From Salminus brasiliensis (Eukaryota; Chordata; Actinopteri; Characiformes; Bryconidae), in contig NC_132892.1 of assembly GCF_030463535.1 (NCBI RefSeq), positions 32,699,976-32,763,975 of the forward strand: DNA of 64,000 bases, in the 5' to 3' direction. How positions within the stretch are numbered: the stretch's first letter is position 1; each line of letters begins with the position of its first letter. The position numbers and the translations under genes were made by a program. This document shows positions 2,702 through 56,849 of the stretch, in pieces. The notes below the pieces were generated by a model that saw only the letters and a program-made list of their open reading frames with translations, did not search any database and was not told where the DNA came from.

Positions 2702-2929
2702 GTCTGAGTTATTAATACCAGTACTAAATTCATACATCCAGCAGGTGGAGAGTTGTTATTTAGAGGGCTCTTATCTCACATATAAATATAATGAACAGTG
2801 TGTAAAGCTTGTAATTCAATCATAATGACAGGGATTCTCAAAGAGATCTGCCCCAGGACACTTCCCATTCCGGCCACCAGAGGACAGCATCACCAGAATT
2901 TTAGTTAATGCTCCACTTCCTGTCCCTCT

Positions 2930-3892
2930 CATCTGAATCCCACCCCCCCAGGCACATCCCATCCCCCGGACATAGCCTATCCCCCCAAACACATTCTATC
3001 CCCCTGGACACATCTTATCCCCCCGGACACATTCTATCCCTCCCAGACACATCCTATCCCCTCCAAACACATCCCATCCCCCTGGACACATCCCATCCCC
3101 CTGGACACATCCTATCCCCCCGGACACATTCTAGCCCCCGGAACACATCCTATCCCCCGCAAACATCCTATCTTCCTGGACACATCTTATCCCCCTGGAC
3201 ACATCCTATTCCCACGGACACATCCTATCCGCCTGGACACATCCTATCCGCCTGGACACATCCTATCCGCCTGGACACATCCTATCCCCCCGGACACATC
3301 CTATCCCCCTGGACACATCCTATCCCCTGGACACATCCTATCTCCCAGGACACATTCTATCCCCTGGACACATCCTATCTCCCTGGACACATCCCATCCC
3401 CCTGGACACAGTCTATCCCCCCAGACATATTCTATCCCCCTGGACACATCCTATCCCCCTGGACACAGCCTACCCCCCTGGACACATTCCATCCCCCCAT
3501 GCACCTCCTATCCCCCCGGACACATCCTATCCCCCTGGACACATCTTATCCCCCCAGACACATCCTATCCCCCTGGACACATCCTTTCCCCCCGGACACA
3601 TCCCATCCCCCCATGCACCTCCTATCCCCCTGGACACATCTTATCCCCCCGGACACATCCCATCCCCCATGCACCTCCCTATCCCCCCAGACACATCCTA
3701 CCCCCCTGGACACATCCTATCCCCCCAGACACATCCTATCCCCCAGACACATCCCATCCCCCCAGACACATCCCATGCCCCTGGACACATCCCATCCCCC
3801 CGGGCACATCCCATCCCCCCGGGCACATCCTATCCCCCCGGACACATCCCATCCCCCCGGACACATCCCATCCCTCCCAGGCACATCCCTAA
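2930..3892 (+). repeat. 19-bp minisatellite
   Basis: Tandem copies of a 19-base unit close to CACATCCTATCCCCCTGGA, with single-base variants and short units, run for about 950 bases. Its last ~310 bases are repeated at 5748-6062. The Pro/Ser/His-rich open frames across it follow from the repeat and the lack of stops, not from coding. Confidence 0.95.
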
Positions 3893-6800
3893 TTTTAATT
3901 TTTATTATTTTTCATAATTTCTTTTTTTACATTTTTAAATATTTACTTTATACTTTACACTTATGTCTGTGTAGTTTTTTCATACCTAATATTTACAAAC
4001 ATAATATTGGCAAACAAATCATGCAAAATATTTCTTTTAAATATATTGACATTTTATAAAGCAAACTTTTCTTTCAAAACAATTTTATTTCATGAAATCT
4101 TGAATTTTGAATACCATATACTATGTCCAAAATATTTAACCCCTTATGATTACATTTGGGCTATACGATTGACCTCCCACATATGGAAACTGTACAATTC
4201 TTGTACAACAAGACTCTTTCCACACTGTACTTTTGATTGTAATAAAATGTATCATGATTGCAACTGAAATTTCTGCTGTTATATGTCTGTTTATCTACTC
4301 ACTGTCTCATTGTTACCTCTCTCAGTTAGTCTGTCTAGTCAGTGTCTTCTTGTTACCTCTCTCAGTTTGTCTGTTTATCTAGTCACTTTCTCATTGTTAC
4401 CTTGCTCAGTTTGTGTCTGTTTATCTAGTCAGTGTCTCATTGTTACCTCGCTCAGTTTATGTGTGTCTAGTCAGTGTCTCATTGTTACCTCGCTCAGTTT
4501 ATGTGTGTCTAGTCAGTGTCTCATTGTTACCTCTCTCAGTTTATGTCTGTTTAGCTAGTCAGTGTCTTCTTGTTACCTCTCTCAGTTTATGTCTGTTTAG
4601 CTAGTCAGTGTCTCATTGTTACCTCGCTCAGTTTATGTCTGTTTAGCTAGTCAGTGTCTTCTTGTTACCTCTCTCAGTTTATGTCTGTTTAGCTAGTCAG
4701 TGTCTCATTGTTACCTCGCTCAGTTTATGTCTGTTTAGCTAGTCAGTGTCTCATTGTTACCTCGCTCAGTTTATGTCTGTTTATCTAGTCAGTGTCTCAT
4801 TGTTACCTTGCTCAGTTTATGTCTGTTTAGCTAGTCAGTGTCTCATTGTTACCTTGCTCAGTTTATGTCTGTTTAGCTAGTCAGTGTCTGAGTTACCTCG
4901 CTCAGTTTATGTCTGTTTATCTAGTCTGTGTTATTGTTACCTCTCTCAGTTTATGTCTGTTTATCTAGTCAGTGTCTCATTGTTACCTCGCTCAGTTTAT
5001 GTCTGTTTATCTAGTCAGTGTCTCATTGTTACCTCGCTCAGTTTATGTCTGTTTAGCTAGTCAGTGTCTCATTGTTACCTTGCTCAGTTTATGTCTGTTT
5101 AGCTAGTCAGTGTCTGAGTTACCTCGCTCAGTTTATGTCTGTTTATCTAGTCTGTGTTATTGTTACCTCTCTCAGTTTATGTCTGTTTAGCTAGTCAGTG
5201 TCTCATTGTTACCTTGCTCAGTTTATGTCTGTTTAGCTAGTCAGTGTCTGAGTTACCTCGCTCAGTTTATGTCTGTTTATCTAGTCTGTGTTATTGTTAC
5301 CTCTCTCAGTTTATGTCTGTTTATCTAGTCAGTGTCTCATTGTTACCTCGCTCAGTTTATGTCTGTTTATCTAGTCAGTGTCTCATTGTTACCTCGCTCA
5401 GTTTGTGTGTAGTCAGTGTCTCATTGTTACCTCGCTCAGTTTATGTGTGTCTAGTCAGTGTCTCATTGCTACCTCGCTCAGTTTATGTCTGTTTAGCTAG
5501 TCAGTGTCTTCTTGTTACCTCTCTCAGTTTATGTCTGTTTAGCTAGTCAGTGTCTTCTTGTTACCTCTCTCAGTTTATGTCTGTTTATCTAGTCAGTGTC
5601 TCATTGTTACCTCGCTCAGTTTATGTCTGTTTATCTAGTCAGTGTCTCATTGTTACCTCGCTCAGTTTATGTCTGTTTAGCTAGTCAGTGTCTCATTTTT
5701 ACCTCGCTCAGTTTATGTCTGTTTAGCTAGTCAGTGTCTCATTGTTACACATCCTTTCCCCCCGGACACATCCCATCCCCCCATGCACCTCCTATCCCCC
5801 TGGACACATCTTATCCCCCCGGACACATCCCATCCCCCATGCACCTCCCTATCCCCCCAGACACATCCTACCCCCCTGGACACATCCTATCCCCCCAGAC
5901 ACATCCTATCCCCCAGACACATCCCATCCCCCCAGACACATCCCATGCCCCTGGACACATCCCATCCCCCCGGGCACATCCCATCCCCCCGGGCACATCC
6001 TATCCCCCCGGACACATCCCATCCCCCCGGACACATCCCATCCCTCCCAGGCACATCCCTAATTTTAATTTTTATTATTTTTCATAATTTCTTTTTTTAC
6101 ATTTTTAAATATTTACTTTATACTTTACACTTATGTCTGTGTAGTTTTTTCATACCTAATATTTACAAACATAATATTGGCAAACAAATCATGCAAAATA
6201 TTTCTTTTAAATATATTGACATTTTATAAAGCAAACTTTTCTTTCAAAACAATTTTATTTCATGAAATCTTGAATTTTGAATACCATATACTATGTCCAA
6301 AATATTTAACCCCTTATGATTACATTTGGGCTATACGATTGACCTCCCACATATGGAAACTGTACAATTCTTGTACAACAAGACTCTTTCCACACTGTAC
6401 TTTTGATTGTAATAAAATGTATCATGATTGCAACTGAAATTTCTGCTGTTATATGTCTGTTTATCTACTCACTGTCTCATTGTTACCTCTCTCAGTTAGT
6501 CTGTCTAGTCAGTGTCTTCTTGTTACCTCTCTCAGTTTGTCTGTTTATCTAGTCACTTTCTCATTGTTACCTTGCTCAGTTTGTGTCTGTTTATCTAGTC
6601 AGTGTCTCATTGTTACCTCGCTCAGTTTATGTGTGTCTAGTCAGTGTCTCATTGTTACCTCGCTCAGTTTATGTGTGTCTAGTCAGTGCCTCATTGTTAC
6701 CTCGCTCAGTTTATGTGTGTCTAGTCAGTGTCTCATTGCTACCTCTCTCAGTTTATGTCTGTTTAGCTAGTCAGTGTCTTCTTGTTACCTCTCTCAGTTT

Positions 6801-11565: not shown

Positions 11566-13215
11566 TCACTCAGTTTTTCTCTTTCTAAATCTATCATAGA
11601 TCAGCTTTGCCCCCGTTCCCACAGCAAGTGCTCCTCCGGCTATAACTCCGGCCACAGGCAGCATTACAGCTCCTGTGATCCCAAAAACCACCCCTCCTGC
11701 CACCATTCCCCCGAGGCCTATTGCTGTTCCTGTTCCCAGGACAACCTCTTTTATCACTTCTACTTGTTTTCTTCTCTGATTTTTAAGGATCTCCTCCTGC
11801 GCTTTTAGAAACATCTCATTAGTGTAGTGCTGTCCACCGTTCCTCCCCACCATTGCGTTGATTTTCTCCAGCAGCTCTGCGATCTGACTGTGGTTCCTCG
11901 TTTCCTGGTTGTTAAAGGCATGATACCTTTCCTCACAGCTCTGAATCAGCTGGTGAAGAGCTTCACTTTCGTTGATAAACACATCCAAAGGTTTGGACCC
12001 CAGCTGATCAGCGTGGGTGAAGAGAACAAGGGTGTAACGTGCAGCATCTTCTCCAAAGTTCTCCTGAATCCACTTCACAGCATTTATCTCCTCTGCTGTG
12101 AACCTCACAGCAAGACTGATCACCAGCAGGAAGGCGTGAGGACCCGGGACGGACATGTAGACGCACTGATTTATCTGTTCTTCTATTGTTTGGCTGTTTA
12201 ATGATCCAAAGATTCCTGGTGTATCAATGACGTGGATTCTCCTGCCTACATTTTCGGCAAGACCGCTTTTGCATGTCTGCGTAACTGCAGCAGGTGACCG
12301 TTCGGCTAGAAAGACCCCTCGTCCCAGGATGGTGTTTCCAGTGGCACTCTTTCCTGCTCCAGTTTTACCCACCAGGACAATCCTCAGCTCAGACTCTGTG
12401 AACCGAGAAACATCTTATTCATCATTTTCTAACAGGAGTTTATTAGTTTGGCTCTTGGATCACTTTGTGACATTTTTGTGACACTTTCGGCCCAAGGCAT
12501 ACTCAAATTATGTGGCCACTTAGGGGGCTCCGAAGAACAGCAAAATATCATGATAAAATATACATATTTTAAAAAAACAGCGGTATTACTCAGGTAAAAT
12601 TATTAAATTTATTTTCATAGTTGGCGCACTGATACTAGGTTTATCAATTCCAGCTGTTGGCTCTAAGAAAATTTAGGCCTTAGGCCTTCCTCTTTGCTAG
12701 CCCAGGGAGAAAGGGGATTGTGCAATATGCAGAGGTGGTCGGAGTTAGGGAACCTGACGATTATAGGTGCCGTCCTCATACTTTTGCACATCTGTTAAAA
12801 ATAAAAAAACTGATGAACTTGTTTACTATAGATGTAGTGTGTTGTCTGCTGATGTTACTGAGCACTTCTACACCTCTCTGTATTTAAAAGTGAAAATTAT
12901 TAATTAAATTAATACATTTTTTAAACTTGCTCCTCCTGTAAGGCTAAAAACTATAGCCAGAATGGTGCCAGTATGACAATAATAAGCTAATTACAAATAA
13001 TGCTAATGATAGTGGGTACGTTACACACACACACAGTGCAGCCTATGGAATGATGAAGCATCTGGTGCTGAGGTGGTGGTATGGGGTGCTTAGGGCCCCA
13101 TAACAACTTGGGCCAGCCCATATTTATCTACTTATATTTGCACACAAACAAAAAATCGTAATCTCAACCAAAATCTCAACTCACCAGAAGAGGGAGCCAC
13201 GACGTCTCTGCCCAT
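11566..13215 (-). CDS. GIMAP family GTPase with hydrophobic C-terminal segment
   Basis: Minus-strand gene with exon 1 at 13,185-13,215 (ATG, phase-1 end, GTGAGT donor) and exon 2 at 11,566-12,395. The join gives 286 residues, starting [20 protein letters not shown]. The AIG1 domain has P-loop GKTGAGKS (20-27), G3 DTPG (68-71), the PGPHAFLLV box (about 94-102) and G4 THAD (137-140). The last 60 residues are Gly/Ala/Val-rich and hydrophobic, then end in a basic tail ([10 protein letters not shown]), which suggests a membrane hairpin or anchor. The protein is closely related, including this tail, to the - strand gene at 59.4-63.7 kb. A polyadenylation signal candidate (AATAAA) lies at 11,417-11,422. 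All G motifs are intact. Confidence 0.88.
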
Positions 13216-17482: not shown

Positions 17483-17956
17483 GTGTTTGATGTGAGGATT
17501 GTTCTGATGGGTAGAACTGGATCAGGAAAGAGTGCAACTGGAAACACCATCCTGGGCAGAAAGGCTTTTGGGAAGGGCTTAATTCCTTAATTAACACACC
17601 CAGGACTACTATAGTGTGTAGACGACAGGACAGTCTGGTAGGAAGTAAGGATCCTTCTGAGTTTAAATAGTGTCTGTAGCTCTGTTTCCCTGGACCTCAC
17701 ATGTTCTTTCTTGTAATATGTTCTTTTATATCATTATATAACACATTTTATCCACTAAAGGATGAATGAATGAAGTAGCAAAGTCCTGATCACCCATGGA
17801 GACAAACATGGAAAATTCAAAAAGAAGGATTTCAGTTTTGGCTTGGAGCAGTTGTGGAGGACGATATCACATCTTCAACAATGAGGAGCAAGAAGACGAC
17901 ACTCAAATCACACAGTTTCATAGAAAGAGAATAGAAGAGAAATGTTCACTGTTATA
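17483..17956 (+). pseudogene. Broken terminal AIG1 exon of a fourth tandem unit
   Basis: This aligns to the terminal AIG1 exons of units A and B. It starts at the DVRIVLMG segment, followed by the P-loop GRTGSGKS. A short insertion near 17,583 creates a stop. About 55 bases that would encode the G3 region are missing after 17,650. A GAACAG to AAATAG change adds another stop, more sequence is lost after about 17,705, and the CAG splice acceptor is absent. The 3' end still reads RKRIEEKCSLL and stop. It is clearly dead, but it marks an older upstream unit. No matching long exon was found upstream. Confidence 0.85.
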
Positions 17957-18064
17957 AATGCTATAAAACTTGATGGTCCAACAGGCCTTGCAGGGTTGTT
18001 AGGGGTTCAGTTGTAACTGTATTAATGGACTCATTGGAAAGTCCAATAATTTGGAAATGCACAG

Positions 18065-20293: not shown

Positions 20294-23200
20294 ATGGCAT
20301 CCTCAATTCCTTCAGGTAATTTGAATACACAATATACATATATAAATATACATAATATGATGAGGGAGTACAAACAGTTCTTACATGCAGATCACAGTCC
20401 TTCTGCTTTCCACACAGTCTCAGATGACCTGAGGATGATGCTGTTGGGTAACGCTGGTGTCGGAAAGAGTGCTGCTGCTAATGCTATATTAGGAGGAGAG
20501 ACTTTCAGAGAGACCGAAACCACAGAGTGTGAGATCCAGAGAGGACGAGTGGACGGCAGAAACATCTCAGTCATCGACACTCCAGGGATCAACAGCACAA
20601 CCCTCAGTTCAGAAGAGCTGAAGACTAAAATGTGGAGATGCCTCTCACTGTCTGCTCCTGGTCCTCATGTGTTCCTGCTGGTGATCAGAGTAGGAAGGTT
20701 TAAAGAAGATGTGAGGAACACTGTGAAGTGGATTCTGGAGAACCTTGGAGAAGAAGCTCTGAAGTTCACCATGGTGCTCTTCACTGAAAGAGAGACAATG
20801 ACCAGCTCACAATGGAAGACGTTTTCTGAGGAAACAAATGTTCAAGAATTAAGGAATCAGTTTGGAGGTAGACATGCTGTGATAAACAGTAAGAGAGAGA
20901 TTTACCCTTCCCAAATAACCAAACTGCTGGAGAAGATTGATGAAATGGTCAAGCAGAACAACACTAGAGGACAACACTACACAAATAAAATAGCTGAGGT
21001 GACCCAAAAAAGGAAATCAGAGGAAGCAGAAAGACGTGAAGTGGAAAAGAAGAGAACAGAGAGAGACAGTCAGAAACATGAGCAGGAGAGAGAGCTTCAA
21101 GAAGAGAGGAGGGAAAGAAGGCAAGAGGACTCTAGAAGTCAGCAGGACAGAAGAGGACAGGGGCAGGAGGGAGAGATGCAAGAACTGGAGTGGAAAAGAA
21201 AGGAGGAAGGTCAAGAAGGAAGAGACAAGGACAAGAAACCAGAGAACATAAATAAAACAGTGGGAGAAGAAATGGGATGTATCCTAGATGAACAAACACT
21301 TCGGGTAACAATGTTCAAGACTGGACAAGATGTTCAAGATGAGGGGACAGTCGAAGATGAAGTGAAGGGAAAACTTGTCAGGGAGGAAGAGGCATGTAGG
21401 TATTCAACTAAGGCAATCACAGGGAACGAGAGACTCAGACGAGATCTCGAGAGACACAAGAAGAGTCGAAGGGAGAGGGAAAGAAGCAAATGGGAGCTTG
21501 AACTGTCGCCAGTGGAAGGAGTTCCTGACACAGGTGAGTCTAAGAATGTCCTATTGATGTGTGGTTACTGCCTGGTCTAGAGTCAGTCTACAAAAAATGA
21601 CAGTGGGCCTGTTCTCCTGACCCACCACCAGCCAATAGGGAAACACCGGACACCAATGGAGGTAAATCGGTTAATCAGGTAATCAGGTTTATTAAAGGTT
21701 TTACATGCAAGATGTTCAACGTGGCTTTAGGGACACACATGTGCCAAACACACAACAATACACAACTATCTGTGTCCAAAATAAAATAAATGGAATTAAA
21801 AATTGTTAACTGTCTCGCCCTCTGTCTCTTCTGCTGCCTCCATAGACTCGACAAACTCCTATTCCCAGAATCCCTCTGTGACTCTGATATCTCCACCAAT
21901 CATGAACAGTCCTACTTAGTTCTAATCAGTATCATCTGTTCCATATCAGTTATTTTGTACTTAAACTCCTCTGATTGTTTGTGTGTCACTTGTGTGTAAA
22001 ATATTGCCAACCTGCTGCATACTGAATGGCCCCTCGTGTATTGCTTCTTGTGTATGACCCTGTGTACCATTCTCATCTTCCTTGGACTGCCCATTGGATT
22101 GGTTTGTTTTCTGTGTTTTATCTTTCTGGCTTGTCATTTTGGCTACTCTTCTGGTTGTGCCCTTGTGTGTTACACTGGCTATGGTTTTTGCTGTTATTTG
22201 CTCTGACCATTTATAAACTGCCTGGTCTTATTACTTAAACCTGAAGTATCGTTGTACACCTGCGAGCGTCTGGTTGGCGTGCCCAGCACAACATTAACAT
22301 CGTTTTTTGTTGAAAGCTTAAACAACTCTCATTCAGGTAACCATCACTGTCCACATACTTCTATGTGTGCTTTACACTGGAATGAATATTAAGCAATATA
22401 TCCACTAGAGGGCGTTTCAGAGTCAAATGTCTGACAGTGGTCGTCTTCAACGTTTCTAAGTTCAGCCATGTTCAGCTCCTCCTCTGCTGCGTTCTCTCTA
22501 CACTGGCTTCCTGTAGCTGCTGCCCAGGTCATCAGATTCAGACCCCTGACTCTGGCCTACAAAGCCAAGACTGAACCAGCCAGTCCCTCCGTACTTGATG
22601 GCGATGGTCAAAAGCCAATATGCACCAAGAACCCTTCCAGCTTCAAGTACGGCTCGGCTCAACCCGCCATCCTTTAAGATCCATGGAAGCGTCCAGACTT
22701 TTTTTCTGTCCTGCACCAAAGTGGTGGAAAGTATTCTGGGAAGAGGAGGGTCTTCAGTCTGGGTTTGAGGACAGTGAGTGTTGGGCTGTTCGGACACCCA
22801 GGGGAAGTTCGTTCCACCACTTTGGTACAGGACAGAAAAAAGTCTGGACGCTCGTCTTCCGTGGATCTTAAAGGATGGCGGGTCGAGCCGAGCCGTACTT
22901 GAAGCTGGAAGGGCTCTGCAGATCAGGCTTTTGACCATCGCCATCAAGTATGTCAGGGTTTTTGAATCTGCTACAGGAAGCCAGTGAAGAGAGAACGCAG
23001 CAGAGGAGTGACATGGCTGAACTTAGAAACTTAAAGACCTGTATTCAAATTTATAATTGAGCCATCTGCACAAGGAATGACCGCAAGTAGACAAGTAACG
23101 TACTTTACTGTATTATTTACCATTTCATAACTTTTTGTTGTTCCCAGTGTACCACTATTAACCCCTTAACACTCCGAGGCCCATTACACATTAAGGTGTT

Positions 23201-24194
23201 TTATATATATGTAGAAAATCAGCTGTGGCTCATTTCAAGACTTATTGTGACTGCTCATAAGCCTCTGTATTTGCAGCACGCCCTGCAAAGGCTCCAGTGG
23301 TTCTTGTATAAGGCTTTTGACAATGAGTGTGGATTCTACCTGCCTGGGTTCTACCTGACTCCTACCTGCCCTGACATTTAGTATTGCATTTCCCCCAATA
23401 ACCCCCCTCTGTATATGCAGCCCTCCTGTAACTGTTCATTACAATAGTTCTGTCATTTACATAATGCTGAGAAACTGGTTCAGGATGTCAGTTTGTGAGT
23501 GTGAAGAAATGTGTTGTTCAGGAGCTTTTACAGTAACATTCTCCCTGTCTTTTGTTTTTCAGTGTCTGACGTGAGGATTGTTATGGTGGGTGAACCTGGA
23601 TCAGGAAAGAGTGCAACTGGAAACACCATCCTGGGCAGAGAGGCTTTTGGGAAGGACTTAATTAACGCACCCAGAACTGCCACAATATGTAGACGACAGG
23701 GCGGTCTGGTGGGCAGTAAATTCGTTACTGTGATCGACACCAAGGGGATTAGCTCATCTTGGATTTATTACAGTATTCCACCTGTTTTAGCTCCTTCTGA
23801 GTTTGAACAGTGTCTGCAGCTTTGTTTCCCCGGACCTCACGTGTTCTTGCTTGTAATTCATGATTTTTCAGAGGCCTATCAAGCATTTAACATAAAGTAT
23901 CATTTTGGAGACGAGTTTCTGAAGTATAGCATAGTGCTGATCACCCATGGAGACAAACGTGGACAATTCGAAAAGAAGGACTTCAGTTTTGGCCTGGAGC
24001 AGCTTGTGGACAGCTGTGGAGGACGATATCACATCTTCAACAATGAGGAGCAGGAAGACCGCACTCAGGTCACACAGCTGCTGGAGAAGATAGAGACCTT
24101 GGTGCAGAGGAACCGAGGAACATATTACACTACAGAGATGTTCCAGGAAATCCAGATAAAGAGAATAAAGGAAGAGAGTTGTGCTGTGTCATAA
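20294..24194 (+). CDS. Unit A: tandem two-domain GIMAP with CaaX end
   Basis: Proposed coding exons: 20,294-20,315 (MASSIPS), 20,418-21,533 and 23,563-24,194. All joins are phase 1 and the total is 589 residues. Domain 1 has P-loop GNAGVGKS (18-25) and G3 DTPG (61-64). The G4 site is FTERETM (129-135), so the family THxD is lost. A strongly charged Glu/Arg/Lys segment (about 215-375, likely coiled coil) links to domain 2. The long exon ends GVPDT with a CAG/GTGAGT donor. The terminal exon starts with a TTTTTCAG acceptor. The architecture is like GIMAP8, with several AIG1 domains. If the last splice is not used, the long exon reads through to a stop at 21,580 and makes a one-domain protein. 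The first intron is only 102 bases and open in frame. Confidence 0.8.
21790..22330. repeat. Probable dispersed repeat in unit A intron
   Basis: C/T-rich sequence ending in CACCTGCGAGCGTCTGG, a feature shared with the end near 9.63 kb. It is likely the end of an interspersed element. No coding capacity is recognised. Confidence 0.35.
22452..23030. repeat. Large inverted repeat in unit A intron
   Basis: Left arm 22,452-22,727, right arm 22,814-23,030, loop about 86 bases. GTTTCTAAGTTCAGCCATGT pairs with ACATGGCTGAACTTAGAAAC at the outer ends and CTGTCCTGCACCAAAGTGG with its near-complement at the inner ends. The right arm lacks about 60 bases. The left arm encodes LHWLPVAAA..IRF..LTLAYKA, a LINE reverse transcriptase C-terminal motif, so the arms come from a retrotransposon segment. 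Confidence 0.85.
23563..24194 (+). CDS. Unit A terminal exon: second AIG1 domain, ends CAVS
   Basis: Encodes residues 380-589 of the unit A product. P-loop GEPGSGKS (389-396), G3 DTKG in place of [14 protein letters not shown] box, G4 THGD. The acidic/basic end closes with SCAVS and a stop, a CaaX-type sequence with Ser last (predicted farnesylation class). The split codon G|TG (Val) joins to the long exon. It has no good ATG of its own, so I treat it as an exon and not a separate gene. Confidence 0.8.
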
Positions 24195-27827: not shown

Positions 27828-30794
27828 ATGGCATCCTCAATTCCCTCAGGTAATTTGAATACACAATGTACATATATAAATATACATAATATGATGAGGG
27901 GGTAAAAACAGTTCTTACATGCAGATCACAGTCCTTCTGCTTTCCACACAGTCTCAGATGACCTGAGGATGGTGCTGTTGGGTAACGCTGGTGTCGGAAA
28001 GAGTGCTGCTGCTAATGCTATATTAGGAGGAGAGACTTTCAGAGAGACTGAAACCACAGAGTGTGAGATCCAGAGAGGACGAGTGGACGGCAGAAATGTC
28101 TCAGTCATTGACACTCCAGGAATCAACAGCACAACCCTCAGTTCAGAAGAGCTGAAGACTGAAGTGAGGAGATGCCTCTCACTGTCTGCTCCTGGTCCTC
28201 ATGTGTTCCTGCTGGTGATCAGAGTAGGAAGGTTTAAAGAAGATGTAAGGAACACTGTGAAGTGGATTCTGGAGAACTTTGGAGAAGAAGCTCTGAAGTT
28301 CTCCATCGTGCTCTTCACTGGTAGAGAGAAAATGACCAGCTCACAATGGAAGACGTTTTCTGAGCACACAAATGTTCAAGACTTGAACAATCAGTTTGGA
28401 GGTAGACATGCTGTGATAAACAGTAAGCGGGAGATTAATCTTGCCCAAATAACCAAATTGCTGGAGAAGATTGATGAAATGGTCAAGCAGAACAACACTA
28501 GAGGACAACACTACACAAATAAAATAGCTGAGGTGACCCAAAAAAGGAAATCAGAGGACGCAGAAAGACGAAAATTGGAAAAGAAGAGAACAGAGAGAGA
28601 CAGTCAGAAACATGAGCAGGAGAGAGAGCTTCAAGAAGAGAGGAGGGAAGGAAGACAAGAGGACTCTAGAAGTCAGCAGGACAGAAGAGGACAGGGGCAG
28701 GAGGGAGATATGCAAGAACTGGAGTGGAAAAGAAAGGAGGAAGGTCAAGAAGGAAGAGACAAGGACAAGACACCAGAGAACATAAATAAAACTATTATGT
28801 TCAAGACTGTAGATGGTAGTGTACCAGAAATTAAGGAAGGGAAGACCGTGGAAGATGAAGTGAAAGGGAAACCTGACAGCAAAGAGCCATTTAGGTTTCC
28901 AACTAAAGCAATCAGAGAGAATGAGAGACTCAGACAAGATCTCAAAAGACAAGAGGAAAGTCGAAGGGAGAGGGAACGAAGGAAATGGGAGCATGAACGG
29001 GAAACAATCGAAGGAGTTCCTGATACAGGTGAGTCTATTAGTGACCTATTAATGTCATTAACGCCACGAACTGGTATAACCTGGTCTGGGGTCAGTCAGC
29101 AGAAAATGGGATGGGCTTCCTTGACCTACTGCCAGTTCAAACAACGGGCATGATGATGAAAATGAACCAGCCTGGTGTATTTAAGGTTTTACAAAGTCCT
29201 ACACAAGATGTTTACTACTGTGAAAAATGTATCTTCGGGGACAAGCACATGCCAAAATAATGAACAAAACAGCTGAGAGGCATGATATTCCTAAGACTAA
29301 ACTGCAGAGTAAAACTGCAGAGTAAAACAAAAGATAAACAAAAGGCAAACAAGATTGAACCTCTTTCCACATCCTCAGTCAATGGACCGGTTAAATATTT
29401 TTAAACTTGATCTAAATATTCCTTCACAGGAGATACTGTATGACAAGCGTATTATTATTAGAGAAATAACAAAACAAGTGATGATTGACTTATAATGTAA
29501 AATGTTTCTAGTATGGGGTGTCCAATCTACTCCCTGAAGAACCTGTGGTTGTAGTTTTTTACTTCAGCAAAGCACACATGAACAACTAAATACAAATAAT
29601 AAATAATCAGGCATGATTCAGATTTTATGGATTGAAAATCTGTAGCAAGTAAATATTTATGGACAGGGTTTATGGAGGCCTTGGCTTCATCAGAAGTCAT
29701 TTGAAAAAGTTTTCCAAAACATTGGCTATTAAAAAGGATAAAAAATGCTAGCCATCCACCTACAACACAGCACATAAATTAAAGATATGTATAGAATGCC
29801 GACAGTGTGATTTTGAGCGTGTATGTCCAATAGCCATAACATATAAAATATGAATTATGAACTTCTAAATTATTGCCATATTAAAAGCTAAAAATACACT
29901 AATAATTGTAATTGAGCTTAAACAATCCTCACTCAATTCCTTTTTTATTTGATCTGCTCCTTCAAATAAACAATCATACACTGAATTCTGTTAAACACAA
30001 TGTTGACATTTATTCTTGTTAAGGTGTGAGTGTTATTTGTTAGTTTGTGCAATAACTTTGTTTCTGCGTTCTGCTTCTCAGTGTCTGATGTGAGGATTGT
30101 TCTGATGGGTAGAACTGAATCAGGAAAGAGTGCAACTGGAAACACCATCCTGGGCAGAGAGGCTTTCGGGAAGGGCTTAATTAATGCACCCAGGACTGCC
30201 ACAGTGTGTAGACGACAGGATGGTCTGGTGGGAAGTAAATCCATTACTGTGATCGACACCAAAGCAAATCCACCTGTTTTGGCTCCTTCTGAGTTTGAAC
30301 AGTGTCTGCAGCTCTGTTTTCCTGGACCTCACGTGTTCTTGCTTGTAATACGTGATTTGTCAGAGGCCTATGGAGCATTTAACCTAAAGGATGATTTTGG
30401 GGAGGAGTTTCTAAAGCGCAGCATAGTCCTGATCACCCATGGAGACAACTGTGAAATAGTCGACAAAAAGGACTTTCGTCCAACCTTGGAGCAGCTTGTG
30501 GACAGCTGTGGAGGACGATATCACATCTTAAACAATGATGAGCAAGAAAACCACACTCAGGTCACACAGCTGCTGGAGAAGATAGAGACCATGATGAAGA
30601 AGAATGGAGGGACACACTACTCTAAGGAGATGTTTCAAGAGGCCCAGAGAAAGAGACTGGAAAAACAGCTCAGAATGGAAGAACAGCTTAGAAAGAGAGT
30701 GGAAGAAGAGCTTCGAATGGAAGAACAGCTTAGAAAGAGAATGGAAGAACAGCTTCGAATGGAACAACAGAGTAGTAGTTGTTCTGTGTCATAA
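27828..30794 (+). CDS. Unit B: tandem two-domain GIMAP with CaaX end
   Basis: Proposed coding exons: 27,828-27,849, 27,952-29,028 and 30,082-30,794, all phase 1, 603 residues. Domain 1 is very close to unit A: P-loop GNAGVGKS, G3 DTPG, but FTGREKM at G4, with no THxD and no Asp. The charged middle resembles unit A until about residue 290, then differs. The long exon ends GVPDT at a CAG/GTGAGT donor. The terminal exon follows a CTTCTCAG acceptor. An AATAAA at 30,889-30,894, 95 bases past the stop, is a good polyadenylation candidate. If the long exon is not spliced it stops at 29,153. The 102-base first intron has an in-frame stop here, unlike unit A. Confidence 0.8.
29160..30030. other. Intron of unit B, nothing further seen
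   Basis: AT-rich sequence with no recognisable gene or element. Confidence 0.5.
30082..30794 (+). CDS. Unit B terminal exon: second AIG1 domain, ends CSVS
   Basis: Encodes residues 367-603. P-loop GRTESGKS (376-383) and G4 THGD are present. Against unit A, about 11 residues are missing right after DTK, so the invariant Gly of G3 is gone (DTKANPP). The tail has a tandem 14-residue repeat, LRMEEQLRKRMEEQ, encoded by a 42-base repeat (about 30,665-30,770). It closes SSSCSVS, a CaaX-type end. Confidence 0.8.
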
Positions 30795-36796: not shown

Positions 36797-39700
36797 ATGA
36801 CAGCTATCATTTCCTCAGGTAAGTAACGTTTTAATAATCAAATCTACTGTATAATCTTGATTAGCAATTTTTGTAAATGACACAAACAAGGTAGCAAGGT
36901 ATACAATTATCATTGTTATTATTATTACCACCATGTCCACACTTTAAAGAGAGTAATTTAAAAATTAATTAATTTAAATGTTACAAATAATCTAAGAATA
37001 CCTCAAGCAATCATCACAGTTGCCATAAAATATGTATCTATATTTAAGATATTTAGTTTTTCTCTTTTCAAAAAAACAAATTTGAATATGTCAGCTGTCC
37101 TTTATATTGTTTCAAAACCTTTGGGTGAACTGGCCAATAGAAAGGCTCAAAATTACTTCAAAACATAAAGTCTTAACATTAATAGCTTGTTCTTTGGATA
37201 AATGAGGTTTTGAGGTACTTTCTACATCAATACAGTTATGGTGGTCAGTGGACATTATCATAGTAAAATCCCACATGTTCAGAGTTTTAATATTTCAGTC
37301 AAAGTTCTGCTTCTACTTGCTCACTTCACTCCTTCTGCTTTCCACACAGTCTCAGATGACCTGAGGATGGTGCTGTTGGGTAATGCTGGTGTCGGAAAGA
37401 GTGCTGCTGCCAATGTTATATTAGGAGGAGAGACTTTCAGAGAGACCGAAACCACAGAGTGTGAGATCCAGAGAGGACGAGTGGACGGCAGAAACATCTC
37501 AGTCGTCGACACTCCAGGAATCAACAGCACAACCCTCAGTTCAGAAGAGCTGAAGACTGAAATGAGGAGATGTCTCTCACTGTCTGCTCCTGGTCCTCAT
37601 GTGTTCCTGCTGGTGATCAGAGCAGGAAGGTTTACAGAAGATGTGAGGAACACTGTGAAGTGGATTCTGGAGAACTTTGGAGAAGAAGCTCTGAAGTTCA
37701 CCATGGTGCTCTTCACTGGGAAAGAAGACATGACAAACAGCCAATGGATTAAGTTTTCTCAGGACATGAAGATGCTTGAATTTGTGAAGAACTGTGGATT
37801 TGGTTACTGTGGGATAAACAGCAAGAGAGAGGTTAATCCTGCTCAGATCTCAAAGCTCCTGGAGAAGATCGAGACCAGGGTTCAGGAGAGCGGAGGTCAG
37901 TATTATACTCATGAGATGTATGAGGCAGTCCAGAGAAAGTTACAAGAAGAGATAGAAGAGGAGGAGAGGAGAAGACAGTGGGAAGAAGAGAAACAGCAGG
38001 AGGAAAGAAGAAATGAAGGGGAAAGAAGAGGAAGAGCAGAAAGTGAAAATAAACATCAACAAATAGAAGAAAAGCTTCAACAAAATACAGAAGAAATCCA
38101 TAAGAAGCTGGAATTACTGACAAGCATAAGAGACGACAAAGTTCCAAGCAGTGCAAACCCTCAGGAAGCCATAAGTAGAAGACAGACTGTAGATACGATA
38201 TCAGAACACAACAATCAGATAAGGACTGGAAATGAAGAGCCAGGAACCCAACCAGAGAAAGACGTGGACAGAAAAACACTGGAAGGATTAGTAACTATGG
38301 AAATAAAGTCCATGAGAGAAGATTACAGGAGACAAAAGGACTGGGAGGACAGAGGAGCGACCGGTGGAATGATACCTGATCCAGGTGTGTTTAGTACTCT
38401 TATGTTGACCAGGTCAGTTTGGCCTGTTTGTGAATCACCAGTCAGATGTGACTCTTCACTAAAAGCACTTGAAGAGCTCCCATAGCTGATCATTGTGCTT
38501 TATATCTAACATCACTTTCCCTATATAGTTTATATAGATTTTTTTATTATATAAAAGTCATATTAAAATACTCTAGTCACACAAACGCTAGTAATCTGGC
38601 TTAGTAATGTATTAACATACTGCTTTACATATTGACAATTTCCTGCAAAAACCTGCAATCTTCTGCAAAAAAAGCAATCAATAGAAGTTCTTGTAATATA
38701 TATACATATATGATTCCAAGTCAGTTTGGAGCATTTCTATTGGTCCATTCAAATTTTACAATACAATTTAAAGAACAACTGTGAAAAATGGCAAAAATGG
38801 AGATACAAGGTTTTTTTGCGTGACACTTGGTTGTGAAACAGAAATACACCAATATTTACTTTGTACTGCATTAGACTTATATAGACATACAGCATATTCT
38901 TGCTTTATGATGCATTACTAAAATAAGAGTATACTGTACACTATATGTCGAAATGTTTGTGGACACTACTTTAAGTTGCACCCATTGCTGACACACATCT
39001 TGTCTAGTACTGCCAATAGAATAGGACTCTCTGGAGCAGATTAATATCATGAACCTATTGGCACCATGCTGCCTAATGCTGCCAGGCGTAGGCTAGAGGG
39101 GTAAAAAGCCCCCAGCATTGAGGAGCTGTGGAGCAGTGGAAGAACTGTGTTCTCTGGAGTGATGGTGGTGCTCCATCCAATGCTATTGAGATGAGTTGGG
39201 GATTTGGGGTTAATCGTGAAGCTGTGCTCTGTTTCTTTCAGAGTCTCATTTGAGGATTGTGCTCCTGGGTTCTACTAAAGCAGGGAAAAGTGCATCAGGA
39301 AACACCATCCTGGGAAGAGCGGCATTTCAGAAGAACATCAACTCCACAGCAAAGTGCAGGAGACAGGATGGAAGGGTGGGCAATAAAAGGATAACTGTGA
39401 TCGACACCAAGGGAGTCTCCCACAGGGCTGATATTTCAGCCTACTGTGAGCTGTTTGAGGAGAGTCTTTCCTTATCTACCCCTGGACCTCATGTCTTCCT
39501 CCTTGTGATACATTCTCCAAAGATCTTAAATAACACCATTGACCCATTAATTAACAATTTAGGTCAAGACTTTTTGCGACGAGCTTTGATCCTGCTCACC
39601 CATGGAGACAGATGGGGGACAGACCATGAAAGGACGCTGAAGTATAACTTGGAGCTAAAGCAACTTGTGCACAGCTGTGGAGGAGATTACCAGATCTTCA

Positions 39701-39957
39701 ACAACATGAAGCAGAAGGAAGACCGCACTCAGGTCACAGAGCTGCTGGAGAAGATTGAGACATTGGTGCAGAAGAATGAAGGAAAGCACTACACTAATGA
39801 GATGTACCAGGAGGCCCAGAGACAGAGAATAGAAGACAGGGTAGGGGTTTTAGAGGAGAAGGTTGATGTGTTGTCTAGGCAGAATGAACAGCTCTCTACG
39901 GTAATAAAGCAGTCTCAGAGGAGGAAGAGTAAAGAAAATGAATGTTGTTTACTGTAA
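36797..39957 (+). CDS. Unit C: tandem two-domain GIMAP with CaaX end
   Basis: Proposed coding exons: 36,797-36,818 (MTAIISS), 37,350-38,384 and 39,242-39,957. The joins are phase 1 and the total is 590 residues. Domain 1 has P-loop GNAGVGKS and G3 DTPG. G4 reads FTGKEDM, where GKED could still serve as an xKxD motif, unlike A and B. A charged coiled-coil linker follows. The start exon (from 36,735) is open in frame upstream of this ATG, so a longer N-terminus is possible if another coding exon exists. The long exon ends IPDP at a CAG/GTGTGT donor, weaker than in A and B. Two further copies of the terminal exon lie downstream. Confidence 0.78.
39242..39957 (+). CDS. Unit C terminal exon copy 1: second AIG1 domain, ends CCLL
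   Basis: Encodes residues 353-590. The codon G|AG gives ESHLRIVLLG. P-loop GSTKAGKS (362-369), G3 DTKG, box [11 protein letters not shown]4 THGD. The C-terminal helix VGVLEEKVDVLSRQNEQLST looks like a coiled coil. It closes NECCLL, a CaaX-type end with Leu last (predicted geranylgeranyl class). The acceptor CTTTCAG sits about 25 bases past a family M MITE. Confidence 0.8.
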
Positions 39958-40299
39958 ATTTTCTCATGTCAACCTTTTTCATGTAAACTCATGTATGAAA
40001 TGCATGGAAGTGATACTTGTCTTCATACCCTGCAATGGACTGGCGCCCTGTCAGCCTGCTAATCCTGCCTTGTGGCTGAAAATTCCGTAGGTAGGCTCTG
40101 GACCCACCTGCACAAGGACCCCTCTTCTTCATTTACTATTATAGGATGAAGATTGGTAAAGTGGGACAGTTGTGGAATTTTCTTTTTTATCTTTTTTGTG
40201 TCTTTTTTTTACTACTTTTCCAAAAGACATTAACTGTGACCATGTCACAAAGCTGCCGAACATCTATAGAAGCCAGATGAGTTACTGTGGACAGATCAA

Positions 40300-40301
40300 A
40301 T

Positions 40302-40356
<55 letters not shown>
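40300..40356. repeat. (TA)n microsatellite, repeated in each block
   Basis: Also at about 43,469-43,522 and 46,636-46,683. Length varies between blocks. The Ile-Tyr open frames across it are artefacts. Confidence 0.9.
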
Positions 40357-40359
<3 letters not shown>

Positions 40360-40914
40360 TTCCACAATCAGAATTCAACTTATGGAAAAATTAACTGTAT
40401 TGAAAAGTATACCTTACCAAAGAACCTTGGGTGTTTTGGGGGTAGTATTGCCACCAGGGGAATAAGCAATATTGCAGTAATTGAGGGAAGACGAATCACC
40501 AAAAATGTCAAACTGTCAGACTGTCATGTCAAAGAGGATGGGTTGATCCAAAGCCTACCTCAAATCCACCACATGGACTTCCTGAAGAAACACAAACTGA
40601 AGCTTGGGAATGGTCATCATAAGATATTTTGTGAACATACCTTACAAATAGCTGTGCAGCAAAGAATATGTCAGAGATATGTTAGAAGCCTTCAGCAAAG
40701 AAGAGTGGGGACAAAACCAGACTACAAAACAAGCTGTTCAAGCAGGTGTTACTAAATGAGGTTTCTAAACTTTTGCACAGCTCTTGCTCTTTCAGCACTG
40801 ATGATTTAGAGCATGTATTTCTATGCTATAAAAGACAGCATGACTGTATTTGTAATTAATACATTTTAAATAAAATATATATATTTATAATTTGGTCAAA
40901 TGTACATAATTCTA

Positions 40915-41120
40915 ATTCATTTATATTTGTATAGCACTTTTTTACAATTGCCATTGTCCCAAAGCAGCTTTCCATGAATCCAGGGAGAGGACAGGAGATT
41001 AACAAATCAACAACAATAAAAAACCTAAACCCACTGGTGAGCCAAAAGGTGACAGGGGCAAGGAAAAACTCCCCCAGAGCTGGATGAAGAAACCTTGGGA
41101 GGAGACTCAAGGGGGGGACC
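40915..41120 (-). repeat. Dispersed fish repeat with GGCAAGGAAAAACTCCC
   Basis: Contains AAAGCAGCTTTCCATGAATC, GGCAAGGAAAAACTCCCCCA and CCTTGGGAGGAGACTCA, words typical of an abundant fish interspersed repeat. It recurs in blocks 2 and 3 at about +3165 and +6332. Class not determined. Confidence 0.5.
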
Positions 41121-42406
41121 CATCCTCCTCTGATCAAAACTACTTTAATATCACCATATAAGACTGCTGCTTGGGTGTGCTGATATAAGCACAATATTAT
41201 TTAATAATTGTAATAATTGTAGAGAAGTTGGGGATAATGAGAGTAATGATGGTTGATGGTGGTAAGAATTATAGTTTTATAGTTAGAGTCCAGAGCCCAG
41301 GCCTACCAACTTCAACAGAATTGCAGGTCGTTAGAATGAATTCTGAATGTATTTATAGAAATCAGAAAATGTTGAGCACTATCAGAACATGGCTGATGAC
41401 TCCGGCAGGTATAGCTGACAGCCTAATTAGAAGGAGAGAGCCAGAAGGTAACACAGACTGATGTGTTTTGTGGCCGGGCAGAAGGGTGAATGGTACAAGC
41501 AGATGACTACAAACTGATCTGGTCAAGTCATTTATTGTAAGAACTCTAGCTGCTGCATTCTGGATCTTGTTTAGGCTCTTAACAGAGCAATTTGACAGTA
41601 AGGAATTATAGTATTCAATATTTATAGTACAGTATAGCAATATTCCAAGGATGAAGAAATGCCCTTCTAGAAATATATACTTATTTTATATATATTTTAT
41701 AGATTTTTTTATTATATAAAAGTCATATTAAAATACTCTAGTCACACAAACGCTAGTAATCTGGCTTAGTAATGTATTAACATACTGCTTTACATATTGA
41801 CAATTTCCTGCAAAAACCTGCAATCTTCTGCAAAAAAAGCAATCAATAGAAGTTCTTGTAATATATATACATATATGATTCCAAGTCAGTTTGGAGCATT
41901 TCTATTGGTCCATTCAAATTTTACAATACAATTTAAAGAACAACTGTGAAAAATGGCAAAAATGGAGATACAAGGTTTTTTTGCGTGACACTTGGTTGTG
42001 AAACAGAAATACACCAATATTTACTTTGTACTGCATTAGACTTATATAGACATACAGCATATTCTTGCTTTATGATGCATTACTAAAATAAGAGTATACT
42101 GTACACTATATGTCGAAATGTTTGTGGACACTACTTTAAGTTGCACCCATTGCTGACACACATCTTGTCTAGTACTGCCAATAGAATAGGACTCTCTGGA
42201 GCAGATTAATATCATGAACCTATTGGCACCATGCTGCCTAATGCTGCCAGGCGTAGGCTAGAGGGGTAAAAAGCCCCCAGCATTGAGGAGCTGTGGAGCA
42301 GTGGAAGAACTGTGTTCTCTGGAGTGATGGTGGTGCTCCATCCAATGCTATTGAGATGAGTTGGGGATTTGGGGTTAATCGTGAAGCTGTGCTCTGTTTC
42401 TTTCAG

Positions 42407-43122
42407 AGTCTCATTTGAGGATTGTGCTCCTGGGTTCTACTAAAGCAGGGAAAAGTGCATCAGGAAACACCATCCTGGGAAGAGCGGCATTTCAGAAGAA
42501 CATCAACTCCACAGCAAAGTGCAGGAGACAGGATGGAAGGGTGGGCAATAAAAGGATAACTGTGATCGACACCAAGGGAGTCTCCCACAGGGCTGATATT
42601 TCAGCCTACTGTGAGCTGTTTGAGGAGAGTCTTTCCTTATCTACCCCTGGACCTCATGTCTTCCTCCTTGTGATACATTCTCCAAAGATCTTAAATAACA
42701 CCATTGACCCATTAATTAACAATTTAGGTCAAGACTTTTTGCGACGAGCTTTGATCCTGCTCACCCATGGAGACAGATGGGGGACAGACCATGAAAGGAC
42801 GCTGAAGTATAACTTGGAGCTAAAGCAACTTGTGCACAGCTGTGGAGGAGATTACCAGATCTTCAACAACATGAAGCAGAAGGAAGACCGCACTCAGGTC
42901 ACAGAGCTGCTGGAGAAGATTGAGACATTGGTGCAGAAGAATGAAGGAAAGCACTACACTAATGAGATGTACCAGGAGGCCCAGAGACAGAGAATAGAAG
43001 ACAGGGTAGGGGTTTTAGAGGAGAAGGTTGATGTGTTGTCTAGGCAGAATGAACAGCTCTCTACGGTAATAAAGCAGTCTCAGAGGAGGAAGAGTAAAGA
43101 AAATGAATGTTGTTTACTGTAA
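42407..43122 (+). CDS. Orphan terminal AIG1 exon, copy 2
   Basis: Protein-identical to the unit C terminal exon at 39,242-39,957, with the same acceptor (CTTTCAG) and the same CCLL end. It has no start exon or promoter of its own. It could serve as an alternative last exon of unit C, because the phase-1 join is kept, or be unexpressed. It is intact, so I do not call it a pseudogene. Confidence 0.55.
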
Positions 43123-43466
43123 ATTTTCTCATGTCAACCTTTTTCATGTAAACTCATGTATGAAATGCATGGAAGTGATACTTGTCTTCATACCCTGCAA
43201 TGGACTGGCGCCCTGTCAGCCTGCTAATCCTGCCTTGTGGCTGAAAATTCCGTAGGTAGGCTCTGGACCCACCTGCACAAGGACCCCTCTTCTTCATTTA
43301 CTATTATAGGATGAAGATTGGTAAAGTGGGACAGTTGTGGAATTTTCTTTTTTATCTTTTTTGTGTCTTTTTTTTACTACTTTTCCAAAAGACATTAACT
43401 GTGACCATGTCACAAAGCTGCCGAACATCTATAGAAGCCAGATGAGTTACTGTGGACAGATCAAAT

Positions 43467-43526
<60 letters not shown>

Positions 43527-45573
43527 TTCCACAATCAGAATTCAACTTATGGAAAAATTAACTGTATTGAAAAGTATACCTTACCAAAGAACCTTGGGTG
43601 TTTTGGGGGTAGTATTGCCACCAGGGGAATAAGCAATATTGCAGTAATTGAGGGAAGACGAATCACCAAAAATGTCAAACTGTCAGACTGTCATGTCAAA
43701 GAGGATGGGTTGATCCAAAGCCTACCTCAAATCCACCACATGGACTTCCTGAAGAAACACAAACTGAAGCTTGGGAATGGTCATCATAAGATATTTTGTG
43801 AACATACCTTACAAATAGCTGTGCAGCAAAGAATATGTCAGAGATATGTTAGAAGCCTTCAGCAAAGAAGAGTGGGGACAAAACCAGACTACAAAACAAG
43901 CTGTTCAAGCAGGTGTTACTAAATGAGGTTTCTAAACTTTTGCACAGCTCTTGCTCTTTCAGCACTGATGATTTAGAGCATGTATTTCTATGCTATAAAA
44001 GACAGCATGACTGTATTTGTAATTAATACATTTTAAATAAAATATATATATTTATAATTTGGTCAAATGTACATAATTCTAATTCATTTATATTTGTATA
44101 GCACTTTTTTACAATTGCCATTGTCCCAAAGCAGCTTTCCATGAATCCAGGGAGAGGACAGGAGATTAACAAATCAACAACAATAAAAAACCTAAACCCA
44201 CTGGTGAGCCAAAAGGTGACAGGGGCAAGGAAAAACTCCCCCAGAGCTGGATGAAGAAACCTTGGGAGGAGACTCAAGGGGGGGACCCATCCTCCTCTGA
44301 TCAAAACTACTTTAATATCACCATATAAGACTGCTGCTTGGGTGTGCTGATATAAGCACAATATTATTTAATAATTGTAATAATTGTAGAGAAGTTGGGG
44401 ATAATGAGAGTAATGATGGTTGATGGTGGTAAGAATTATAGTTTTATAGTTAGAGTCCAGAGCCCAGGCCTACCAACTTCAACAGAATTGCAGGTCGTTA
44501 GAATGAATTCTGAATGTATTTATAGAAATCAGAAAATGTTGAGCACTATCAGAACATGGCTGATGACTCCGGCAGGTATAGCTGACAGCCTAATTAGAAG
44601 GAGAGAGCCAGAAGGTAACACAGACTGATGTGTTTTGTGGCCGGGCAGAAGGGTGAATGGTACAAGCAGATGACTACAAACTGATCTGGTCAAGTCATTT
44701 ATTGTAAGAACTCTAGCTGCTGCATTCTGGATCTTGTTTAGGCTCTTAACAGAGCAATTTGACAGTAAGGAATTATAGTATTCAATATTTATAGTACAGT
44801 ATAGCAATATTCCAAGGATGAAGAAATGCCCTTCTAGAAATATATACTTATTTTATATATATTTTATAGATTTTTTTATTATATAAAAGTCATATTAAAA
44901 TACTCTAGTCACACAAACGCTAGTAATCTGGCTTAGTAATGTATTAACATACTGCTTTACATATTGACAATTTCCTGCAAAAACCTGCAATCTTCTGCAA
45001 AAAAAGCAATCAATAGAAGTTCTTGTAATATATATACATATATGATTCCAAGTCAGTTTGGAGCATTTCTATTGGTCCATTCAAATTTTACAATACAATT
45101 TAAAGAACAACTGTGAAAAATGGCAAAAATGGAGATACAAGGTTTTTTTGCGTGACACTTGGTTGTGAAACAGAAATACACCAATATTTACTTTGTACTG
45201 CATTAGACTTATATAGACATACAGCATATTCTTGCTTTATGATGCATTACTAAAATAAGAGTATACTGTACACTATATGTCGAAATGTTTGTGGACACTA
45301 CTTTAAGTTGCACCCATTGCTGACACACATCTTGTCTAGTACTGCCAATAGAATAGGACTCTCTGGAGCAGATTAATATCATGAACCTATTGGCACCATG
45401 CTGCCTAATGCTGCCAGGCGTAGGCTAGAGGGGTAAAAAGCCCCCAGCATTGAGGAGCTGTGGAGCAGTGGAAGAACTGTGTTCTCTGGAGTGATGGTGG
45501 TGCTCCATCCAATGCTATTGAGATGAGTTGGGGATTTGGGGTTAATCGTGAAGCTGTGCTCTGTTTCTTTCAG

Positions 45574-46289
45574 AGTCTCATTTGAGGATTGTGCTCCTGG
45601 GTTCTACTAAAGCAGGGAAAAGTGCATCAGGAAACACCATCCTGGGAAGAGCGGCATTTCAGAAGAACATCAACTCCACAGCAAAGTGCAGGAGACAGGA
45701 TGGAAGGGTGGGCAATAAAAGGATAACTGTGATCGACACCAAGGGAGTCTCCCACAGGGCTGATATTTCAGCCTACTGTGAGCTGTTTGAGGAGAGTCTT
45801 TCCTTATCTACCCCTGGACCTCATGTCTTCCTCCTTGTGATACATTCTCCAAAGATCTTAAATAACACCATTGACCCATTAATTAACAATTTAGGTCAAG
45901 ACTTTTTGCGACGAGCTTTGATCCTGCTCACCCATGGAGACAGATGGGGGACAGACCATGAAAGGACGCTGAAGTATAACTTGGAGCTAAAGCAACTTGT
46001 GCACAGCTGTGGAGGAGATTACCAGATCTTCAACAACATGAAGCAGAAGGAAGACCGCACTCAGGTCACAGAGCTGCTGGAGAAGATTGAGACATTGGTG
46101 CAGAAGAATGAAGGAAAGCACTACACTAATGAGATGTACCAGGAGGCCCAGAGACAGAGAATAGAAGACAGGGTAGGGGTTTTAGAGGAGAAGGTTGATG
46201 TGTTGTCTAGGCAGAATGAACAGCTCTCTACGGTAATAAAGCAGTCTCAGAGGAGGAAGAGTAAAGAAAATGAATGTTGTTTACTGTAA
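45574..46289 (+). CDS. Orphan terminal AIG1 exon, copy 3
   Basis: Third protein-identical copy, intact and headless like copy 2. It lies about 7.2 kb from the unit C donor at 38,385. Downstream there is no other GIMAP exon until 51.6 kb. Confidence 0.55.
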
Positions 46290-46633
46290 ATTTTCTCATG
46301 TCAACCTTTTTCATGTAAACTCATGTATGAAATGCATGGAAGTGATACTTGTCTTCATACCCTGCAATGGACTGGCGCCCTGTCAGCCTGCTAATCCTGC
46401 CTTGTGGCTGAAAATTCCGTAGGTAGGCTCTGGACCCACCTGCACAAGGACCCCTCTTCTTCATTTACTATTATAGGATGAAGATTGGTAAAGTGGGACA
46501 GTTGTGGAATTTTCTTTTTTATCTTTTTTGTGTCTTTTTTTTACTACTTTTCCAAAAGACATTAACTGTGACCATGTCACAAAGCTGCCGAACATCTATA
46601 GAAGCCAGATGAGTTACTGTGGACAGATCAAAT

Positions 46634-46687
<54 letters not shown>

Positions 46688-56768: not shown

Positions 56769-56849
56769 ATGTAAAAAAATATATCATGGATTTAGTGATT
56801 GTTTATTAAACTCTGAGAGTACTTTGTCCAGCAATACTACTGCACTATG

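Follow-up and report, generated by a model that had tools for sequence, protein, structure and literature searches.

Candidate CaaX boxes at the ends of tandem GIMAP genes in the fish Salminus brasiliensis

In this Salminus brasiliensis cluster, the tandem GIMAPs are AIG1 GTPases with two domains, and their last exon appears to terminate in a working CaaX box. We analysed a window of 64,000 nucleotides containing three such units (A, B and C) and their single-domain neighbours (Table 1), together with the tails of AIG1 exons elsewhere in the genome. Working prenylation, which had already been proposed in a preliminary description of this DNA, is the best explanation of the tails, with farnesyl predicted for A and B and geranylgeranyl for C. 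We place its probability at about 0.78. In its favour, the boxes lie at the ends of the frames, the excess of cysteine falls exactly at position -4, one box shows silent codon turnover, and CaaX tails are found in more than one clade. The excess, the turnover and the variety of permissible boxes (15 kinds) form the pattern that prenylation signals under selection would give.

In the proposed mechanism, farnesyltransferase would attach an isoprenoid to the -4 cysteine of CAVS (A) and CSVS (B), while geranylgeranyltransferase I would attach one to that of CCLL (C). The final three residues would then be removed and the cysteine methylated, and the lipid would keep the protein at the cytosolic face of a membrane, with help from the basic residues of the C tail or from oligomerisation. 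A hydrophobic C-terminal segment would play the same anchoring part in the single-domain neighbours. The prenyltransferases are assumed to be as in other vertebrates, and we infer the enzyme action, lipid type, membrane and function of A, B and C.

Table 1. Features of the window and CaaX boxes of the genome (window positions, except where a contig is named)
Feature	Position	Strand	Details
Window	C15:32,699,976-32,763,975		1.07-Gb genome
Scored hydrophobic-tailed neighbour	1670-2701	+	Kyte-Doolittle tail score
Scored hydrophobic-tailed neighbour	11566-12414	-	Kyte-Doolittle tail score
Dead copy, CSLL and stop	17943-17957	+	Matches to A broken
Unit A, likely first coding exon (MASSIPS...)	20294-20315	+	ATG; donor CAG/GTAATT; phase probably compatible with next exon
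Unit A, exon of first AIG1 domain and charged coil	20418-21533	+	AIG1 146.5 bits; donor CAG/GTGAGT at 21534
Unit A, last exon, second AIG1 domain	23563-24194	+	AIG1 134.5 bits (scored on 23562-24191); in frame once joined; CAVS and stop at 24180-24194
Unit B, first AIG1 domain exon	27952-29028	+	AIG1 match; donor score 12.5; joined from 27957, putative start
Unit B, last exon	30082-30794	+	AIG1 131.2 bits; in frame once joined; CSVS and stop at 30780-30794
Unit C, first AIG1 domain exon (approximate start)	37350-38384	+	AIG1 match; donor score 9.5
Unit C, last exon	39242-39957	+	AIG1 137.3 bits; in frame once joined; CCLL and stop at 39943-39957
Second copy of C last exon, CCLL end	42407-43122	+	Identical 245-aa frame
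Third copy of C last exon, CCLL end	45574-46289	+	Identical 245-aa frame
Fifth single-domain neighbour, partial domain, outside scoring	53371-53931	+	End reads ENLLAGAVVGLSALLAVALVFK
Scored hydrophobic-tailed neighbour	55869-56783	-	Kyte-Doolittle tail score
Scored hydrophobic-tailed neighbour	59437-60252	-	Kyte-Doolittle tail score
Boxes in window			CAVS, CSVS, CCLL (three copies)
Boxes on C3			CCIS, CAFL, CVIQ
Boxes on C4			CSIL, CTIQ
Boxes on C12			CSIS twice, CSIV, CSAF
Box on C15	34.08 Mb		CSIQ
Boxes on C15	30.45-30.58 Mb		CVIA in eight, CVIL in one; nine of nine long GIMAPs found there
Box on C16			CTVL

Tandem units and their ends in the window

Each of A, B and C consists of an exon encoding an AIG1 domain and a charged coil, followed by a final exon with a second AIG1 domain, and these tandem domains are reminiscent of GIMAP8. 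The last exons of all three units and the first domain of A scored above the Pfam cut-off for AIG1 (PF04548, 27 bits), which places them among the GIMAP/AIG1 GTPases. The Pfam scan of these four exons yielded only AIG1, MMR_HSR1 and a sub-cut-off RsgA_GTPase, and the eight PDB sequences that were matched are GIMAP1, 2, 4, 5 and 7. When the two AIG1 exons were joined in silico, a single frame ran through to the stop in A, B and C; in unit C, whose first-domain exon has an alternative in-frame end at 38412, two donor/acceptor choices both worked.

Direct reading of the letters confirmed the coordinates and motifs given in the preliminary description, with cysteine at -4 in every case. Unit A ends in TGT GCT GTG TCA TAA, unit B in TGT TCT GTG TCA TAA, unit C in TGT TGT TTA CTG TAA, with identical letters in its two further copies, and the dead copy in TGT TCA CTG TTA TAA. 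Under the CaaX residue rule used for these tails, CAVS, CSVS and CCLL all possess a cysteine at -4, an aliphatic-type residue at a2 and a permitted last residue. The boxes lie at the frame ends, and the predicted frames and splice signals are consistent with a C-terminal position. There is little or no polybasic stretch near the A and B boxes, and the C tail carries the basic residues RRKSK.

It had also been argued that the recurrence of this cysteine in four loci made chance less likely. Chance is better excluded by the genome-wide excess at -4 described below, and the four loci are not independent: A, B and C group as a single clade (SH-aLRT 99), the copies of C are recent repeats, and A is the best match for the fragments of the dead copy. 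Therefore, the window alone represents one conserved origin and constitutes weaker evidence than had been claimed. Second-domain identity is 76% between A and B and 54% between A and C.

In the region 38522-46935, the last exon of C is present in three repeats of ~3.16 kb, with a single first-domain exon seen ahead of them, which reflects either a recent duplication or an assembly artefact. Pieces of 300 bases matched at 99-100% with spacings of 3161-3167, and an ungapped comparison over 2600 bases gave just 65-66%. Because the exons are identical and the 300-base pieces match at 99-100%, we read the latter figure as the result of small length differences that shift the register.

In all three units, the second domain retains GKS and THGD and has DTKG or DTKA instead of DTPG; these are the only three such cases among the 68 domains with a G3-like motif by pattern (81 domains examined). 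In the first domains of the units DTPG is intact and G4 is altered (FTERE, FTGRE and FTGKE), and the two domains within one protein look complementarily degenerate. The hydrophobic ends previously noted in the single-domain neighbours were recovered in the four of five that were scored, each with a 19-residue tail stretch of mean Kyte-Doolittle value 1.88-2.18. At 2905-4059, we observed long overlapping open frames of a Pro/His/Thr-rich minisatellite (PPGHILSPWTHPIP-like), part of which is repeated in 5681-6229; these frames are probably non-coding.

Tails of AIG1 exons across the genome

The genome contains 125 matches to the FISNA (fish-specific NACHT-associated) domain, against none in 14 control genomes, which supports the fish origin assumed in the preliminary description. 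Among its 219 AIG1 candidates, 150 were scored, so the counts below are lower bounds. The sampled loci contained 102 complete AIG1 ORFs above the cut-offs, 93 of which were distinct by their last 60 residues. Together with 49 of 56 further tails (the seven omitted, L118-L124, are without a CaaX end), these gave 142 rows. Grouping by the last 18 residues (threshold 60% identity) reduced them to 129 clusters; many of the rows come from internal exons, and their read-through ends are noise. Cysteine occupied position -4 in 20 of the 129 clusters (28 of 142 rows) and each of the 14 other positions from -1 to -15 in one to six clusters (mean 3.5), an excess with a Poisson P of 1.1e-9 (this and the following survey P values assume independent clusters, and the genes are related). 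A strict CaaX rule (C, any residue, V/I/L/A/F, S/A/M/Q/C/L/F/V), which was formulated once the tails were known, was matched by 16 of 129 clusters (23 of 142 rows) compared with 16 of 1257 non-AIG1 ORFs from the same loci (Fisher 2.2e-9). For cysteine at -4 alone, the corresponding counts were 20 of 129 and 61 of 1257 (Fisher 2e-5). The comparison of -4 with other positions is independent of the strict rule, and five rows with cysteine at -4 failed that rule (CKQQ, CCRF, CVVR twice and CKTS).

At least 25 AIG1 exons ended in CaaX, with 15 different boxes on five contigs (C3, C4, C12, C15 and C16; Table 1). Under the usual last-residue rule, S, A and Q lead to farnesylation and L and F to geranylgeranylation; 16 of the 25 boxes would thus be predicted to be farnesylated and eight geranylgeranylated, and the remaining one ends in V. 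The boxes CSIV, CSAF and CAFL are less typical by the CaaX rule and were counted against the prenylation reading. Basic residues precede some boxes (KPKCSIS, KHHKKCVIQ and AKEKCSIQ), and the kin on C3 of the GIMAPs at C15:30.45-30.58 Mb ends in CVIQ. In the cluster of nine exons on C12, four ended in a box, four had none and one had a buried box; since only four of nine are box-ended, the box is dispensable in this cluster. In L070 (G000:C12:35632230-35632470), KKKCVVS is followed by seven extra residues, as if a stop loss had buried the CaaX box. The related L053 (4059-4868, minus strand) and L042 (4041-4853, minus strand) carry a basic CaaX (AKEKCSIQ and KQRCTIQ) behind a hydrophobic stretch, so that a single tail combines the two anchor types. 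A reported open frame of 1882 aa at G000:C9:10775407-10780914 has an AIG1 match at either end.

Seven pairwise codon comparisons were made at the boxes. The C12 paralogues L003 and L005 have CSIS in common, spelled TGT TCA ATT TCA and TGT AGC ATC TCC, respectively. These four codons show no amino-acid change and three silent changes, against 16 amino-acid and two silent changes in the 25 aligned codons ahead of the box (Fisher 0.0075, uncorrected, for one pair among the seven). L053 and L042 retain C-[ST]-I-Q with one amino-acid and one silent change, and 16 of their 29 preceding codons have an amino-acid change; in the comparison of L063 with L003, the boxes were not aligned. Charged repeats lengthen the linker of B relative to A, yet both units end in -SC[AS]VS. 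The A and B boxes differ by one amino-acid change and no silent change, and conservation extends into the initial bases of the 3' UTR; therefore, this pair alone gives no sign of selection.

Tail types on the domain tree and alternative explanations

An unrooted, 'quick' tree was built from 81 domains, 14 with CaaX (two of them also with a hydrophobic stretch) and 18 with a hydrophobic tail only; it excludes partial domains and the CTVL exon of C16, and keeps one of the nine copies at C15:30.45 Mb. CaaX required six changes on this tree versus 13.1 in shuffles, with none of 500 shuffles as low, revealing that CaaX tails are clustered. A single clade of all 14 CaaX tails, as would follow from one origin without loss, was rejected (AU p 0.0018, on a quick tree of 78 rows after three more long rows had been omitted). 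On an unrooted and quick tree, one CaaX gain followed by several losses may be an alternative. The set into which A, B and C fell (support 81, not starred) has 20 rows, of which 12 are transmembrane-tailed, and includes the scored neighbours in the window. Because A, B and C sit among transmembrane-tailed genes and CaaX does not form one clade, tail type seems, on this unrooted tree, to switch between a lipid and a hydrophobic anchor. The earlier suggestion that prenylation provides a second way to reach membranes is consistent with the tree, on which transmembrane tails abound in the set that holds A, B and C.

Several other explanations of the tails were weighed. If other last exons were used, the stops of A, B and C would not be true ends, and CAVS, CSVS and CCLL would represent read-through or rare isoforms. 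A moderate donor (score 6.5) inside the last exon of C fits such a scenario, but in roughly the final 190 bases of the A and B terminal exons the best donors are very weak (2.9 and -0.5 versus 12.5 for first-domain-exon donors), and unused ends would not yield the genome-wide excess at -4, so we consider it unlikely. A similarly low probability is given to a family relic, in which boxes that worked in an ancestor are now neutral or weakly used in A, B and C. The persistence of the box in the dead copy, the slight divergence of A and B around the stop and the loss of boxes in some C12 paralogues all point in this direction; however, with domain identity down to 54%, A and C have both kept a permissible box, spelled differently in each.

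The cysteine might instead serve another purpose, through palmitoylation alone or with the end acting as a PDZ ligand. Although the two cysteines of CCLL and the hydrophobic character of some ends would suit this idea, the strict -4 rule together with a final S, A, Q, L, F or V suits CaaX and neither alternative under the usual motif rules, and we regard it as very improbable.

Relation to known prenylated GTPases

Mammalian GIMAPs share the AIG1 domain PF04548 with A, B and C but reportedly lack CaaX-type motifs; PMC3804274 states that no member of the family carries a known prenylation or palmitoylation motif. In the accessible portion of PMC8201404, membrane association is ascribed to GIMAP1, 2, 3 and 5, the remaining GIMAPs having no anchor domains. 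Arabidopsis AIG1/IAN8, an AIG1-family protein from a plant, appears among the prenylated proteins listed in the available text of PMC6866125. No prenylated vertebrate GIMAP was found in the titles and opening abstract lines of the openly licensed PMC papers listed, and the accessible text of the Entamoeba literature on AIG1 and CaaX mentions a CAAX protease and no CaaX on AIG1. Within the portions of the literature covered, CaaX tails on vertebrate GIMAPs appear to be new, and an AIG1-family member from a plant has been listed as prenylated.

GBP-1, GBP-2 and GBP-5 are immune GTPases with prenylated CaaX ends, similar to what is proposed for A, B and C. As described in the available part of PMC2998424, these ends (CTIS, CNIL and CVLL, respectively) are prenylated, removal of the box abolishes or reduces membrane binding, and GBP heterodimers carry unprenylated GBPs to membranes. 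GBPs constitute another GTPase family, and the Pfam scan of the three last exons and the first-domain exon of A detected none of their domains; that GIMAPs might recruit partners as GBPs do is speculation by analogy. On a broader and tentative view, to which we assign slightly less than even odds, a sizeable part of fish GIMAPs would be prenylated, and the anchors (farnesyl, geranylgeranyl, transmembrane, and hydrophobic segment plus CaaX) would have repeatedly switched among paralogues. The result would be GBP-like immune GTPases, sorted by lipid to different membranes and mutually recruiting as heterodimers, that would have been lost in mammals or gained in fish.

The route by which GIMAPs reach membranes informs their function, and the mammalian work, in the parts available, describes hydrophobic anchors or none. 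If the prenylation reading is true, the presence in a single fish genome of at least 25 AIG1 exons ending in CaaX would tie GIMAPs to the prenylated GBPs, and fish GIMAPs would be sensitive to statins and prenylation inhibitors. In addition, their membrane dependence would be testable by one residue (Cys to Ser), and lipid and transmembrane anchors would interchange inside one family.
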